Made by a program: the position numbers and the translations under genes. Positions 28,535-39,230 of a stretch of 64,000 bases of DNA are shown here, piece by piece; position 1 is the stretch's first letter; every line of letters begins with the position of its first letter. Below the pieces are notes generated by a model. That model worked only from the letters and a program-made list of their open reading frames with translations, had not been told where the DNA came from and ran no database searches. Source of the stretch: Siphonodentalium dalli (Eukaryota; Mollusca; Scaphopoda; Gadilida; Siphonodentaliidae). Location: positions 122,981,030 to 123,045,029 of the forward strand of contig CP136067.1 of the NCBI GenBank assembly GCA_032622095.1, given 5' to 3'.

Positions 28535-29329
28535 CACCGTTTTCTCCACCAATCTTGCACCACTGTGCACACAATAGTCCAGGCACATTAGGTTTCACTA
28601 GGGCAAAAAAATCCGGGAAAGCTGAATTTTTCAGGGATTAATAAGAACAGGTTTATGAACAACTTGGCAAAAGTCCCCTAGAATCCGAGTTGAGCTTTTT
28701 GAGATATCTTGATTTTTCGGAATGGTTCATATTCTGACGCAATTCCATCGAGCCATATGCGAATACAGTCATATGTAGACTAATTTAGGTACTCAATCTT
28801 CACAAATACACGCCTATTGTGGTGCAGGTGTCGCTAGATATGTGAAATTTATGTTTGAGCTCACAACCAATCATATTCCGTAAGTGTGATGACATTATTA
28901 CCGAAGAGAGCACTTGAATTGCATGACGATTCAGAATTTTTCATACAAAAGAGAGTGAGTAAAGATAATGAGATGGCAATTATTGAAATATGAACACTTC
29001 TACTGGAACAGAGGTTAATTCAGATAATGACATTGATAAGATATATCGAAAAGTCACAACTCTGATAATTTTACGACCGAAAACTTAACCCTACCCCCTA
29101 AACGTACACCATGCCGTCGAGTGTCTGAAAGCCTAAAAAGACCACATAACAAAAATGTCAGAAAAGCTGCTCATACGAAGACCACAGCAGGACTGATAAC
29201 ATGTTCCGATATGTCCAAAGACGACGATACTGACAAAATATATTGGATATCAGCAAACAGACGAGATTCGAAACACAGCGAATATTCATGGATGACCAAT
29301 CAAAAAAATATCTACATGACGGTTGGATC

Positions 29330-29511
29330 TGTGAGTCTGTGATTGCTACAAGAATCCAAATTACACCTGCACAATCCGGAGCACGACAAGCCTGCTTTCT
29401 TACACCACATCTCTTACTGCAACCGCTCTTACACCCACAACTGACCAAATTAAAGAGATTTTCAGGCGCGAAGGGCTGTGTTGTTGCAGTTTGATCTAAG
29501 AACGCCACTGG
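29330..29511 (-). pseudogene. Cys-rich C-terminal tail of the PIN-type element protein
   Basis: The minus strand gives FAPENLFNLVSCGCKSGC-SKRCG; after a one-base shift it continues CKKAGLSCSGLCRCNLDSCS. The pattern CxC-x3-C-x3-C ... C-x5-C-x3-C-x-C is the metal-binding-looking tail I know from this uncharacterised invertebrate family. It is separated from the PIN part by a stop near 29,510. Role unknown, possibly nucleic-acid or zinc binding. Confidence 0.6.
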
Positions 29512-30540
29512 TCACCGACCAGCCCCCAATCTGTTGGCGACAGCGAGTACCCTAACCATTCCTGAACCAGTTTGTAGGTATGTTCGGAAGGCATGCTGGT
29601 GTGCTGTACAACTGGTTGGTGGTGGAAGGGAAGCAAGTTGAATGCACTTACTCAGCTTAGTTTTGGCTGCATAACGCGTATAAGCAACGTATCGGTAATG
29701 GTCGAGGGAAGCGAACTTTCTCGCTCCGTATAACACCAATAGAATTCGTTCCCCCGACGAGGCAATTTCTTTATTTGTGCTGTCATGTGCCGTGAAAGAG
29801 TCAATGTAGTTTTGTAAATCTCCAGAAAGTTCAGAGACCATCATGTTGAAGACTTTCTTTTTTCCTAGACGAAAGAGCGCCGAAGTTGTATCACAACCGC
29901 TGATAGCATGTGCCAGCAATACTTTTCCCTTTGACTTACCAAACTTGATCGAAATTTCTCCGACTGAGAAGAGGACTTTGTGTGCGACAGAGAACATCAT
30001 GTATATGTTCCAGTCCGAGTGATTGCGACACGTTAGGATAGCAAGTAAGTCTTTGTCTGTTCCAAGAACTACAACATTGGTTTTATCCTTTGAGCTAAGT
30101 CCAATGCTATCTCAGCGATCAGAACATCAGCATTTGCGTTTGCTTGTTTCGACTGGACACCGATGTGGGGAAATTCCTGCATTGACAGACGGATTAGTTG
30201 TGTTTTGTTCCGACTATTGGCCAGAAAATCAGATTGGGAGGTGGTTACTGGCAGGTCAAGCGAGATGTTGATATCTGCGGAATATCTACCCTTAGCTCTG
30301 CGTGCTTGCTCCACACCCTTTGTTGACATATCACATTCATAGCCATCAAATACAGCAATGGCATTGGATCCAAAATGTTTCATTATATAATTTGAATATG
30401 AGGTGCAGATATCTCCATATGATGACTGTTTGGGCCAAACGACTGCTCTTAACAAAAAGCCACCATCTATGATAAAAAACAGGGCTTCCTGGAAGGTTTT
30501 TCCGTTCAGTGGCATATGACTTGAGTATTTTACCAAGGAC
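29512..30540 (-). pseudogene. PIN/XPG-like nuclease domain of the element protein
   Basis: Two minus-strand frames, 30,536-30,069 and 30,070-29,512, join at a frameshift near 30,070. In order they show FIIDGGFLLRAVVWP, AVFDGYECDMSTKGVEQARR, ANADVLIAEIALDLAQ, then in the next frame VVVLGTDKDLLAIL and KVLLAHAISGCDTTSALFRL. The spaced acidic residues (IDGG, FDGY, ADV, TDKD, GCDTT) are the arrangement of FEN1/XPG-type PIN nucleases, which bind metal and cut DNA or RNA. All are kept here although the gene is broken. What this nuclease does in the family is not known to me. It could be the element's catalytic protein or a cargo function. Confidence 0.75.
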
Positions 30541-31440
30541 GCTCTTCTGCACGTGTCTTTCTCATTCCACCAGAATCAAACAGTGCCGGCGGTTTTGGTG
30601 CTAGCTCATACTTTAGATATCCCTCCATTTCGGACTGGGACTGAATCACACATGTGATGCGGCTGAAAAGTAACGTGGGATCGACTACCACTTCATCTCC
30701 ACGTACTTTGATAAAATTGGCCATTGATGCGATTGATTTGACAGTGTCGGTCCGACGCAGTTTGATGTTTCTGAATGCTTCCCTACAGCCTTTGATACGC
30801 ACACATTACCAACTGTAACGCCCTGGCCACAGCTGACTGATTTGTCTGTCACAGTGCCAGATGACAATGAGACTAACTGCAGTGGGTCTCTATTGCCGAA
30901 CGGAGAATGCACTCTCAACCAGTTGAGGAATTTGTTAATATCACTGATGTCATTTGCTTGAGCGCTCTTGCGAAGGTCCCGGTGTTGGTCAATGTGGCCA
31001 GTGTGGACTTGAACAAGTTTTCAAGAGCATTGCATATCGGCAGACAGAGGGGAAGGGCGTGAACCCATTTCGCAATAGTGCTCTCCGTTATTCCTCTGCC
31101 ACGTGTGAGACCGCCAGGTACCTTGAACATCCGCATAAGGCACTGTTCTATGGTTTGGTCGGAATAAATCCCATCCCAGAACTTATCAGCCCTTCTGATA
31201 GTGAAGAATCCCTTCTCCATGAACGCCTTGAAGTCGTCGACGGGTTTGTTCGGGGGAGATCTTCCATCTGTTGGAGGTAGAGATGATGGACACACTTAGC
31301 GTATGAAAAATGACTACCAGCATGGTAAATTGGTATCATCAGTCTTACACAATACGTATGGAGTGCACAGTCTCCAGTGCGCTCTGCTCTCAGGAACAAT
31401 TGTAGAAGACTGATTTGTTTGTGATACTGCGCCCGCAATT
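30530..31440 (-). pseudogene. Middle part of the element protein (RAERTG and GGLTRGRGITES blocks)
   Basis: Successive minus-strand frames give SLLQLFLRAERTGDCALHTY and HFSYAKCVHHLYLQQMEDLP (31,438-31,250), then KGFFTIRRADKFWDGIYSDQ and FKVPGGLTRGRGITESTIAK (31,295-30,915), then DPLQLVSLSSGTVTDKSV and PTLLFSRITCVIQSQSEMEG with YLKYELAPKPPALFDSGGMR (30,918-30,530). I recognise this block order from long uncharacterised proteins repeated in many invertebrate genomes. At least three frameshifts separate the pieces. No function is known to me. Confidence 0.72.
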
Positions 31441-31529
31441 TCCCGCTCCACCGCGGAGCAGGCCATCAAGGAGATCTAACAAACTGATCGATGACGTCAG
31501 TTTGAACGACAGCTTCCGCTATTGTGCAT

Positions 31530-32699
31530 TTACCTGCGACGATATCTCCACAATGTCATGTTGCGTTCAAAGTGGTGCAGTCCACGCGTTTCAAGCACGC
31601 GACTTTCTTCAAAGAGATGTCTAGTCATAGCAACTTTGGATAGCAAATGAGCACGGACAGCCCTGGAGTATGCGTGGCCACTAATAATATGATGGATTGA
31701 TCCTCCAGCATAAGCAGTGGCCCAAAGTTCATCAAGACCACTTCCAGCCATAATAAAGTCCACTGCCCCCAAATAAGACATAAGCATATGGAATCCTCCA
31801 AGCCTCACAAAGACGTTTGTCAACTCATCAGAGGAAGTTACTCTCTCAACCGCCTTGATAAATAGCGGCTTATCAAAAGTCACTGGGCAAATGTTTAGTC
31901 CTTGTTTTTCACATTCGGTTTGCGCGAAAATGAGTGCTGTGTATATGGTACTGACGTTTGAAGGATCGAAATTTATGAAGGGCAATATTTCAATGTCACT
32001 TGTCTTATAATGTTCTTCTTTGGTCACAACATGCATATAACCAGCCCACGAAGGCTATGAGATGACCCCAAGCACATAGCTCAGCGACCAGAGGGAATCG
32101 ACAGACTCGGCATGCTTTAGAGTTTTGGGAACCGATTCACCCAGATGAAGTAGATCTTTCATCACGATCAGATCCAAACCTGATTGTGTGGGTCTGTTGT
32201 AACTTTTCAGCGGAATATAACCGAACTCGCCAGATCCAACATTACCAAGATTGCCAGTCAATCGTTTAAGTGATACTTCTTAGTCGGCAAATCCCCCCAT
32301 ACTATGGCATGTATTGTTACCATCTATTATGCGTACATTACAGTCTGCATTATCGAAAACAAATTGTGTGGATTTTGTCAGTCCGGGCGATGGTCCCTTG
32401 TGAAGCATAATTGACGATATATATTGCTGAACTTCTCTGTAGCTCGAAGAAAACATAAGCCCATTTCAAATGTCAATTAGTTTCCTCGATGCATATTTTC
32501 GGTGTATATATATAGACTGCAATTGACCGAGACAAAAGACCGCGGTCGACATGAACTTATCACAGAATCCTGGATGCTCGAATGAATCATCATATACATA
32601 TATATTAATCATATGATGGGTCACTAGATGATTCATACATGGAACGACCTTGACATTTATACTACCTAGTCTACCGGGTATTGAAAACTCATATGTTTC
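31530..32699 (-). pseudogene. Central part of the element protein (FDNADCN and LGGFHMLMSYLG blocks)
   Basis: From high to low coordinates: a frame-shifted SSIQDSVISSCRPRSFVS (about 32,560), SRKLID, then FSSSYREVQQYISSIMLHKG and TKSTQFVFDNADCNVRIIDG with HSMGGFAD (32,440-32,290), a stop, then GNLGNVGSGEFGYIPLKSY (to 32,055). The next frame (32,036-31,530) gives ILPFINFDPSNVSTIYTAL, VTFDKPLFIKAVE and VFVRLGGFHMLMSYLGAVDF with IMAGSGLDELWATAYAGGSI. These are the signature blocks of the same family. About 120 bp at 32,575-32,699 next to the LINE insertion are not explained by either element. Confidence 0.75.
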
Positions 32700-32910
32700 T
32701 ATTACGTGTGGAATAAATTCACTAAGGTCGGGTCGATTTTTATAGTGAATGGATTCTTTTATGTAAAGGCACACACCACCTCTACCATCATCGTCATCAG
32801 CTCTACACTTGAATACCATAGGGTGATATCCCGGTATTTGAAAGTGTGATGCTTGTCGTATTTTAAATGTTTCTGTTAAAGCAATGACGTCGAATGAATT
32901 ATTATTCGAC
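32700..32910 (-). pseudogene. Inverted 5' piece of the LINE endonuclease
   Basis: Read on the minus strand from 32,910: NNSFDVIALTETFKIRQAS, FQIPGYHPMVFK, GRGGVCLYIKESIHYKNRP, DLSEFIPHVIET. This is the N-terminal half of an APE endonuclease (the ALTET metal site and the RGGV block). Its end (HVIET) continues directly in sense into the plus-strand start (IFVEINPG at about 32,926), so the two pieces were one reading frame before inversion. Confidence 0.85.
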
Positions 32911-32925
32911 TTTATGTCGCACAGG

Positions 32926-35050
32926 AACGATATTCGTGGAAATTAACCCAGGAAAAAATGACTCTCGGATACTCGACTGCGTTTACAGACCAAATACCGC
33001 GCCAAAGGCCAACATTGATCAATTTTTTAAAACATTCGACGACATTCTAGAAAAAATTAAAACCACAAATCATATATATCAGGAAACTTTAATATTGACC
33101 TACTCAATTTCAACTCGCATACAAAAACGAATGATTTCATAAATAACATTTTCACAAGAGGATTCTAGCCAAGGATAACTAAACCTACTCGAATGACCGA
33201 TCATTCAGCAACTCTTATCGATAATATATATACCAATAACCTACAAGGCGAATGTAAATCTGGTATAATCACATGCGATGTATCCGATCACTTCGGCATA
33301 TTTTATTCAGAATCTAACCAAAAGAGACAAAACAGCACCAATAATAAATAACGAAACTACCACTAATCAAAGAAGTTTTAGTCCTGATAACATAATTAGA
33401 TTCAAAAATCTTTTTAAATCTTGTACCTTTGACTCCGTCACAGCTTGTAGAAGTGTCGACCAACCATATGAAATCTTCTTAGATATCTATATGAATGCAT
33501 ATGAACTAGCTTTCCCCATAAAAAGTCGACATATACCCGAAAAATTCATAAAACGCGAACCTTGGATGACATCTGGATTGATTAAGTCAAGTATTGTTAT
33601 AAGAATCAGCTATATTTACGCAAATTGAATAAATCAACGGAAACGAACGTATATAAATATTTGAGTTATCGTATACCCTATACAATAAACTAATCAGAAG
33701 GAGTAAAAATATATACCATACAAATATTCTAGAAGTAAATAAAAATAACTTAAAGAAAACATGGGAAATACTTAAGGGTGCATTGAAGATAACTGGAAGC
33801 ACAAATAATAACCCCAAGACCTTTACCGAAAACGGAATAGAACTTGAAAATTCCAAACTCATATCGGAAAAGTTCAATGACTTTTTCTCAAAAATTTGGC
33901 GGGAAACTAGCCAACACAACAAACATGAAAATGACTCTCATTTTACAGATTTTCTCTATAACCGCAAACCAGACGGCATCAATTTCAAAATAATTCCGAC
34001 CTCTATACAGGAGATCATCCTCACATGTTTCTCTATGACTGGGAAAGTATCACTAAACTTATCAAGGAAACAGTTTAGGAGATAGCCCCAGCATTAATGC
34101 ATATTTTTAACTTGTCCTTATAGAGCATGGAATAGCCCCTAACAAAATGAAAATTTCTAAAGTAGTCCCGAATCCCGATCCCAAAAAATACTACCACTCA
34201 TGAAATTTCCAACTACAGACCTATCAGCATTCTTCCAGCTATCTCTAAACTTCTCGAAAAAATAATGCATAAACGATCACTAGACTTCTTAAACGAACAA
34301 AACATACTCTTTAAACACCAATACGGCTTCCGCCCTAATCATTCAACCTTCCATCCTGTATTACACCTCCTCGATCAAGTTGTCTCAAATAATGACAAAA
34401 TGACAAGAGACTCCACTTTAGCTCTATTTCTCGACCTCTCAAAAGCATTTGACACGATAAATCACGATGTTTTACTTCAGAAACTAGATCACTGTGGCAT
34501 ACGAGGCACAGCATACTCATGGTTTCAGAGCTATCTGCAAAATAGACGGCAATATGTTGAACTCAATGGTGCCAAATCTAATTCAACGGAAGTGACGTGT
34601 GGAGTGCCCCAGGGTTAAATTCTGGGACCGATAATTTTCTTAATTTACGTTAACGATATGTCAAATTCGACAACCATGGGTATCTCATCATACGCGGACG
34701 ATACGACTCTACTAACTGGTTGATAAAATGGCATTCTTGTAGAAAGTTATGTGAATAATGAGTTACGCAACATATTTGCTTGGTGCTGCATGTAGCAATA
34801 AGTTAGTGATCAATACTAAAAAAAAGCAACTAGATGCTAATACACACAGAGAACAATGATGACAAATGGAACTTTATAAAGGTTTACTTAAATAATACGG
34901 AACTAAACAAGATAGCAAATCTTGAGCACGAATCCTCCACAAAATTCTTAGGAATCCATATAGATGAAAACTTGACTTTCATAAAACATGTGTCCTCTGT
35001 TTGTTCTAAAATGGTGAATGCCATATACCACATCAATAACGTTTAACACT
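32926..35050 (+). pseudogene. LINE endonuclease C-terminal half and reverse transcriptase, multiply broken
   Basis: Pieces in several frames: IFVEINPGKNDSRILDCVYR, GNFNIDLLN (about 33,080), CDVSDHFGIF (about 33,270-33,305, the SDH catalytic site), then linker frames to 34,085. The RT core at 34,265-34,618 reads FKHQYGFRPNHSTFHPVL, LALFLDLSKAFDTINHDVLL, GIRGTAYSWFQSYLQNRRQY and CGVPQG, a stop, then ILGPIIFLIYVNDM and SSYADDTTLL. The YADD box is intact. 34,834-35,046 carries the thumb-like KFLGIHIDENLTFIKHV. Many stops and shifts: a dead copy, older than the LINE at 13.9 kb. Confidence 0.85.
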
Positions 35051-35943
35051 TCTTTCCTGGTAGCGCACTTGAAACATTATATTATGCTCTAATACAAAGC
35101 CATCTTGTCTACGGTGTTCAAATATGGAGACACGTCCCTGCTGTCAAAAATATTTCATGCTTCAAAAACGCGCGATACGAGTTTTATAGAAGCCACACAG
35201 AACCTCTTTTAAAAAAAGAAAATATACTCAAAATCTACGACATCCACAAAGTCCAAGCGGCTGTTTTCATGCATGATTGGTATTATATGCGCTTAATATA
35301 ATCATTCGCCGACATGTTTACCAAACGCAAAACCGGACCAGACACCCGGCAAATTAAAGCACCCACTATTTTTAAAAACACCAAGAACATCTTGGGCCCA
35401 ACAACTACCATTCCATTCTTATCCAACTATATGGAACAACTTAGATAACGAATTTACATCATACCAAACCAGGCACACATTCAAATGGCGTTTACCTGCC
35501 GATTACATTACAATATGCTGCAACAATTAAATGCAACAATCAAAGATGTCCCGACTGTGTGGTGGCTCGGTCAATAGAGTGACCTCCCCTATATCGCAAT
35601 CCACAACCTCACTCAGCACATTCCTACTCGACTTTCAAGGAACATCCCACTGACAAGAAATAGACAAACCATCGAGTAACCCATAAGCAATTTATCTATA
35701 CGTATACCCTCCATGCATATAATCCATTTAAATGCAATCATTATGTGATCCATAATTATATAGCCGTGCATTGTACAAGAAATCTTGACCGCCTATCGTA
35801 ACATCTATTAATCTTTAAGGGGTTAGCAGTAAGACAGTCTAGCCTGACTATGCCACCCCCTCGAATATACAATACAATATTTGTAAAATGTACTATGCAT
35901 TAATATGTGTATATTGAAACAAAATATCCTATCCTATCCTATT

Positions 35944-37020
35944 TATGTGACGCGTCTCTGGTTAATTGCTCTGACTGGCTATCTCATCCTTTGCCCGACG
36001 CCGTGGTGGAGCTATGACACCCTGCAAAAATGCGTGGAGTGCATCAGGTAGTAACTGAATCGACACAGATAAAGAGTCTGGTTTTGGGTACACATCACAA
36101 TCGTATATGGTTGACGGAATATCATCGCGAACAATAGCAGCCGCTTTCTTGACAATACGCATGCGTTCATCAGTTGCAGTGGAACATTTGCTCGTGTACC
36201 AGGAATCGTACAGTATTCTGTCCGAGGACTCCCTGAATGTGACCACATTTTTAAGGGATCTCAAGTTTGTGATAGAGATTCTGTTCCCAAAATGCTCCAT
36301 TAACTTTACCTTCAGATATATTATGGTGTAACCGACTTCATCGCCCAAATATGTTTCAAAGGCTTCTGCTAATTCACCCAGAGAAAACTGGCAATCATTG
36401 CTATTCTCCATGAAAGTGCACAACTCATTGAATGCGAGTGTTTTCTTGTTTGTCACCGGCCTACCCCGTGAGTGAGTCTCGTGTGTTTCTCTGGCGAAAT
36501 TCTGATGGCAATCATGGTGGTAACCCCCTTCTTCTGCAACTAAATCAATTGCATGCTCAATACGAGTCAGCACTATTTCACCCCACTCGTCGTTGCGTTT
36601 TCGACACCATACTCTGATGCTATCAATGGAAGACAATGTCACGACCTCGTGCACTTGTCTTCTCCTTTCTGAAGGTAGGTTCAGTTGTTTGTCGACTTCC
36701 TGTCCACATAGTAAACAGTGGATCTTAAAATCGAATGCAGGCTGGTCAGAGCTTAGTTTTAACAGTTTACACGGATTCATATAAATCATTCCGGCATCAC
36801 TACTAGCTCTTTTCATGCTCGTTATGGTGCTTGGCCGAGTATAATTTTTGTAACAATATGGGTGTATTTTGGAACCATCAACTGGTTCATCTGACTCCAT
36901 AAACAGATTATCGCAAAGCTTCATGCTTGCAGATATCAACGCTTGTACACATCGGCTGCCAAGTGTCACTATTTGTGTAGGGTTCTGTAGTTCCCCCTGA
37001 CATTTGCAGCATTTATCTAT
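35944..37020 (-). pseudogene. N-terminal part of the PIN-type element protein (two Cys/His motifs)
   Basis: The longest intact piece of the family here, 335 codons (36,969-35,962) plus an in-frame extension upstream to about 37,020. It starts DKCCKCQGELQNPTQIV with a first CxxC, followed by HPYCYKNYTRP (HxxC). A second set follows: HCLLCGQEVDKQLNLPSE and HHDCHQNF. The rest is helical, ending in LLPDALHAFLQGVI and a basic tail before the stop at 35,960. The paired CxxC ... HxxC sets look like zinc-binding domains. Upstream of CKCQ the frame closes; ACAAACAG there could be a splice acceptor, so an earlier exon is possible. The LINE insertion begins just past the stop. Confidence 0.75.
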
Positions 37021-38010
37021 ATCTGTTTGTCAAAAGAAAGGAGTGCTTTGCTTTATTTCCTGACGCAAAGACTTGATGACCAAAACTGAGGCAATAAATA
37101 TCTCAAAACCTATTCAAAATTGTTCAGTATATCAGTATTTAATTCGTGTGAACGTATCAGAACTAAATGAGTCGTAGCATGAGTTGAATAGTAACACAAG
37201 AATACAAGAAAAACCGCCCCTGCTTCGTTGTCACCGTAAGGTATCAACAGGAGTCGATTATCGGCATATGAATATAAAAAACAAAAGCCAACATCAATTT
37301 AAATAAGCTTTCGCAAGAGAGTTGATCACAATTAGATAAATTATCGACAATATTCAATGAGAGCAGACAGCCAACTGATCAGATACGCGTGTTGTTAGAT
37401 TGGCAGCCGAATAACGAGCGTTATGCGAGTATGCTACCATTAACGGCTTCAATAAAGAGCGTTAATTAATTGCAGTTCATTTATGGGTATTGTGTTTATA
37501 TTAATGTTTATAACACCAGAAAAGCTCCATTACGAAGTTTCCAAAGACAGAACCCCAATTTCGATTAGAGAAAGTAGAATAGCAAAATGTGATTAGGTCG
37601 ATGAGAACCAGTTTAGGGGGTAGGATTATGTTTTTACAAGACTTGTATTGACCACTTAAGATATGCGTAGTCGCTAATGTCACATACTATTGTGAAGAAG
37701 TAATGTCTGTGCAGTTTCTAAAACATATTGCTCATGTCTGTGTTTTGAGATTCCCGAGAAATCCGACATCAAATACGACAGTTTGCCTGAAAAATCGTCA
37801 TATTTTGGGGTTATTATGATATGTCATCCAAAAGTGCGAAATTCATTCGAAGTTCCCCTTTAAACTATATAGTATCTGTGGTTGGAGAATTTTGTATTGA
37901 ACAATATTAAGTGTCAACTGTATATGTTTAGGCTGATAAATTGTCACAGCATCCAATTATTTCCATGATACTCACAACGATTTTTTTTATGGAAAAAAAT
38001 GGTTAAGTCC
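37021..38010. other. 5' flank of the PIN-type gene, no feature seen
   Basis: If the element is real, its promoter should lie here, between the gene start and the right TIR. Confidence 0.35.
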
Positions 38011-38110
38011 GAAAGCTCCTCGGATTTTAGGGGACTTTTCGTGACGCATCCGCGATGTTATGGCCTAAATAATATTTAAAAAATCAGCTTTCCCGGATTT
38101 ATTTCCTTAC

Positions 38111-38440
38111 TTTTCCCCTTTCCTGTTCCCGGACAACAACGTCCTCGTAGAATTTCAACATGCATAGTAGTTGCACAATGAGAAAGTGAAATTTCCTGTG
38201 TTTTTATTCTCGGATAAAAAATAATATTTTTAATACGCATATAGCATGTGCGTGTAAAATTAGAATATGTCTACCATGCATTAATATGTATATTATGTGT
38301 TGATTCATTGCAAAAAGAAGCCTTTCGGAGTTTGAGGAATGAGCAAATAGCCAAGTTCAATCCGGTATAACGAAATCCGAAATAAATACTATAATATTCG
38401 TTGTTTTAAGGCGCGAACTATCGTTCAATAATAATTCCAA
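38111..38440. other. Spacer, no feature seen
   Basis: AT-rich. Confidence 0.4.
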
Positions 38441-39082
38441 CAATGGCTGCGGACACACGTACAACAGTAGCTATGGCATAGTAGGTGTGACAATTTATTA
38501 TGGTGGAGTTTGGTGACAATTAGTAATCATACTTCTGTGGCATAGCTAGCCATGTAGCCCGCTGGTTTCCGCACAATGAGTTGACTGGACCAATGAACCA
38601 ATTGCGTTTCACCAAGGTTGATCTCTACTCATTACGTTTTCTACATTGTATTCTCTACGATATATATAATTGCACGATCGATCACCAATAATTGTGTTTG
38701 TCCGTGGCAGTCCCTCATTCACTCACATATCATGCATGTAGTACGTTTTATTGATATGATATTCCCCAATTGCATTTTTTATTTTGCGACGTTTAGTTTT
38801 ACGCATAATTCCGCTAACATTATCAGTCGAAACTGCTGAAGAAAATGCATTTGCGAGAAATTATCTAGAATAAACAAAGCGAACTATATACATATAAGGA
38901 CCAAAACAAGAAAAAGGCTGATTATAACGAACTTTGGGAGACTCAGTGTTCGAATATGCAGCGGGAGACATGGCTAGCTATGGCATATTAATTATGACGA
39001 CCAATGGTCACCATCCACCATATAACTTGTCACACCTACTATGCCATAGCTATATACTGTGGTACGTGTGTCCGCAGCCAAT
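38441..39082. repeat. MITE with ~100-bp inverted ends
   Basis: The left end CAATGGCTGCGGACACACGT ... GCTATGGCATAGTAGGTGTG is mirrored at the right end (CACACCTACTATGCCATAGC ... ACGTGTGTCCGCAGCCAATG). A second, partial copy in opposite orientation is at 48,953-49,402. Confidence 0.88.
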
Positions 39083-39230
39083 GACATGGATAAATATTAC
39101 GTAATACTTTGGATCTATATATATAATGAGTGTACATGCTTACATTGCGTCCCTGCATGCACATCAAATATTATGGGGAAGTTAGGGAACCAAATAGGCC
39201 TTATTTGGTTCTATATTTTTCCCCTATAGC

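Follow-up and report, generated by a model that had tools for sequence, protein, structure and literature searches.

The window (the whole 64,000-nt stretch of Siphonodentalium dalli DNA analysed here) carries a degraded copy of a cut-and-paste-type multicopy DNA transposon, whose gene fuses a transposase-like region to an XPG/FEN1-family nuclease. The inverted repeats around the gene belong to this transposon, and the arrangement is far beyond chance, with the same ends, the same gene and target duplications present in many copies. Because the 3-bp duplication and the fused nuclease match published AcademX traits, we conclude, with a probability of about 0.87, that the element is an AcademX-type DNA transposon, placed by its traits rather than by alignment to a deposited Academ transposase. 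The earlier note had put it forward as a candidate for an undescribed system; a nuclease combined with a 3-bp duplication is how AcademX has been described in the literature (PMC10045372), and the element is very probably a known kind of transposon and not a new system, the step to AcademX being one of shared traits.

The window copy spans positions 28575-38136, with the 3-bp duplication CAA on both sides (28572-28574 and 38137-38139). Its left terminus, TAGTCCAGGCACATTAGG (28575-28592, plus strand), is the inverse of the right terminus, which reads CCTAATGTGCCTGGACTA in complete copies and is decayed in the window, where it has small deletions (38120-38136, minus strand) and ends near 38136. 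The similarity of genome copies to the left arm starts abruptly at 28575, whereas on the right it ends at 38122 because the final bases of the window copy have decayed; the terminus at 38136 was set by aligning the right end of the window copy with complete copies (L029-L032), and CAA comes next, as it does before the left terminus. The terminal inverted repeats are 18 bp long, and the uninterrupted element measures approximately 6.0-6.3 kb. The arms around the minus-strand gene share three pairs of inverted blocks, all subterminal, with the left member on the plus and the right member on the minus strand: 28605-28631 and 38078-38104 (27 nt, 93% complementary), 28669-28689 and 38019-38039 (21 nt, 95% complementary), and the inner stretches 29080-29103 and 37611-37634 (24 nt, 92% complementary). 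Two colinear inverted pairs had been described in the earlier note, where the left member of the outermost pair appears as AATCCGGGAAAGCTGA, and both are present, but they are subterminal and the true termini lie outside them.

When each arm was searched against the host genome (9 contigs, 2.23 Gb), matching ends were recovered, with at least 40 scored copies per end. Exact 3-bp target duplications were found in 12 of the 14 copies with two readable ends, against 0.46 expected from mismatched flank pairs, and no duplications of 4 bp or of 6-10 bp were seen among these 14 scored copies. The empty-site claim is based on L032, for which a paralogous site at C4:40742863-40743024 is 82% identical over the joined flanks and contains a single ACA. 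A joined-flank search for L037 returned many repeat copies covering query positions 108-297, across the junction near 150; at the level of the search matches, these belong to a repeat that lies over the insertion point. Complete copies of the window subfamily (L029-L032) are 6.18-6.27 kb long, further copies being longer by insertions or shorter by internal deletions, and elements of a sister subfamily carry the same gene between the same ends in 5.96-6.00 kb. Relatives were absent from viral contigs by protein, alignment and DNA pattern.

The gene encodes, in order, N-terminal Cys/His motifs, a large central region, the nuclease and a Cys-rich tail. In L032, a sister copy of the window element, it forms a single open frame of 1371 amino acids, and tblastn with this frame places the decayed window gene on the minus strand at 29321-37020, confirming the motifs reported in the earlier note; its upstream limit was read from the sequence, the window codon being ATA where sister copies start. 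The N-terminal part lies at 35965-36969, the central region at 31008-32516, the nuclease domain at 29880-30476 and the tail at 29321-29450. The tail is CXC-like, as judged from a TCR/CXC match in a related family, L050 (E 0.01, under the curated cut-off). The gene is split by a nested plus-strand non-LTR retrotransposon (32569-35938) with RT fragments and a TATCC-repeat end. This insertion of about 3.4 kb makes the window copy longer than the others, whose alignments run to 32568 and resume at 35939. Given stops, frameshifts, this insertion and the loss of one nuclease acid (N at 30134, where an intact relative has D), the window copy is degraded and unable to make the protein. The sister subfamily shares 72% protein identity and has several stop-free frames of about 1460-1467 amino acids, with central region and nuclease in one long reading frame, and can probably make the protein. 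Its sampled copies are 99.7-99.8% identical in DNA, which indicates recent movement. A comparison of the two subfamilies gives a dN/dS of approximately 0.04 in the central region and 0.12 in the nuclease; as dS is saturated, these values are a reliable guide to the sign of selection only. Both regions are under purifying selection, and selection on the nuclease makes it unlikely to be passive cargo.

Single-protein searches of Pfam, NCBIfam and PDB gave weak matches only. A profile built from the C-terminal region of 11 sequences of the host genome, down to about 20% identity, matched Exonuclease 1 in PDB (E 6.8e-5), with the FDG...K..ER.RR and GCD motifs in register. The weak Pfam matches of the nuclease part to 5'-3' exonuclease are consistent with this result, and the XPG/FEN1-like domain recognised in the earlier note is thereby borne out. 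Seven aligned acids are kept in sister copies: D993, D1033, D1104/D1106, D1130/D1132 and D1185 (P0001 numbering). In the window, on the minus strand, the corresponding sites are D at 30467, D at 30347, the substituted N at 30134, TDKD from 30057 and GCDTT at 29892. The acids of P0001 are spaced 40/71/24/53, and those of FEN1 52/72/19/52, so that, with the usual FEN1 numbering, the two sets are alike in number, order and approximate spacing. The protein thus shares with the XPG/FEN1/Exo1 family the seven acidic positions and the FDG...ER.RR and GCD motifs, but here the nuclease part is joined to a transposase-like region and carried by a transposon, and the similarity is remote, single sequences falling under the Pfam cut-offs. 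An AlphaFold prediction for the 155-residue nuclease fragment of the window, made from a single sequence without an alignment, had a pLDDT of 35, too low for the model to be of use. The nuclease of AcademX is reportedly XPG-type or XPG-like in the 2020 work of Kojima.

The earlier note saw no known transposase in the protein. Its central region, however, appears to have the D / D / E layout of a DDE-type transposase, fused to the nuclease. The motifs DNxD, T(F/H)D, an LGGFH-like block and DxxxE are kept across the compared families, upstream of the nuclease, and distant families of this genome likewise have such a central region ahead of the nuclease. D358, D525 and E767 (P0001 numbering) are conserved across families and, from the motif layout, may constitute the DDE triad; in the window copy these putative catalytic acids lie on the minus strand at 32354 (DNADCN), 31874 (TFDKP) and 31148 (DQTIEQ). 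The RAERTG and GGLTRGRG blocks of the earlier note also fall in this region. In neither single-protein nor profile searches did the central region match a Pfam family or PDB sequence; the only PDB hit of the transposase-region profile, a designed helical cage protein at E 0.08, was treated as noise.

Related families and neighbouring elements were also observed. A degenerate HAL[TS]GCDTT pattern had 121 matches in the whole genome and none in a reversed control, and many distant nuclease-gene families therefore coexist in this genome. Three nuclease-motif matches at G000:C3:49803238, 49807075 and 49810912, spaced by exactly 3837 bp, show a related gene arranged in tandem. In the related family L066 (G000:C4:151547000-151553700) the element is a fold-back with the nuclease part in each inverted arm and the transposase-like part between the arms, which are approximately 1.0 kb long at 97% identity and are accompanied by further blocks. 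Inverted pairs of hits to the nuclease-motif pattern, 3.3-3.4 kb apart, recur at C4:169000525, C5:5362001 and C6:1016257. L064 (C4:151385500-151393000) and L065 (C4:153278075-153285575), from a divergent family, are identical over 7501 bp with zero mismatches at a distance of 1.89 Mb, and the identity takes in the related gene and its flanks; the pair reflects either a segment that was duplicated recently or a duplicate in the assembly. These two copies yielded no inverted ends, and their element ends are not definable because they are identical including the flanks. Just beyond the right end of the window copy lies a separate small palindromic element (38441-39083), with arms at 38468-38498 and 39022-39052 (97% complementary) and at 38441-38469 and 39055-39083.

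Three other readings of the data were weighed. The ends were scored in many copies irrespective of the gene, as might be expected if a host nuclease gene lay between unrelated repeats by chance, but gene and ends travel together, with target duplications, at about ten separate loci. The earlier note had held that gene copies lacking the flanking repeats would speak against a transposon; this joint occurrence instead supports its placing of the gene inside inverted repeats. The target duplications and the existence of an empty site refute the host-gene reading, to which we give practically no weight. It is also highly improbable that the PIN/XPG nuclease is itself the recombinase of a new transposition mechanism that uses no DDE transposase. 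All seven of its acids are kept in sister copies under purifying selection, but within that same frame a large central region is conserved more strongly, and in it the DNxD, T(F/H)D and DxxxE motifs persist across distant families; clean 3-bp duplications are in keeping with a DDE enzyme that transfers strands in a staggered manner.

An undescribed superfamily, in which a non-Academ DDE-type enzyme acquired its XPG nuclease independently, is unlikely, if less so than a nuclease acting as recombinase. That the central region matches nothing in Pfam or PDB speaks for it, as does the Academ link having been drawn from traits and not from direct sequence comparison; against it, the 3-bp duplication and fused nuclease match published AcademX traits (PMC10045372), and this genome is rich in related families, in line with the reported expansion of Academ elements in bivalves (PMC10294476). 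We likewise consider improbable a non-Academ superfamily in which transposase and XPG/FEN1 nuclease form an obligate fusion, the nuclease acting on the excised ends or on the target gap; if true, this would amount to a two-enzyme transposition pathway.

The AcademX placement is preferred on the comparison with published elements. AcademX has 3- or 4-bp duplications and is linked to an enzyme worded simply as a "nuclease", without the XPG type, while AcademH has 9- or 10-bp duplications and is linked to a helicase (PMC10045372). With AcademX (Kojima, 2020, via PMC10045372) the element shares terminal inverted repeats, a 3-bp duplication, an encoded nuclease and a single long protein with what appears here to be a DDE-type layout, and no difference was established in this comparison of published traits rather than deposited sequences. 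AcademH, presumably a sister lineage with a shared transposase, differs in its duplications, the 3 bp found here being within the AcademX range and outside that of AcademH, and in its helicase, for which the sister reading frames gave no match in Pfam or NCBIfam. The element fits AcademX on every feature examined: duplication size, XPG-type nuclease and helicase absence.

In the proposed mechanism, the central D, D and E acids would make up a catalytic site of the DDE type. This site would cleave the DNA at the inverted repeats and join the repeats to target DNA opened with a 3-bp stagger, and a branched or flap intermediate arising in excision or strand transfer may be trimmed by the nuclease part of the fusion. 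A gene type that the earlier note knew as long uncharacterised multicopy invertebrate proteins is thereby explained, in this genome, as the product of a transposon with a fused nuclease. With its near-identical intact sister copies, the genome is well suited to testing why a flap-type nuclease is needed by one transposon lineage.
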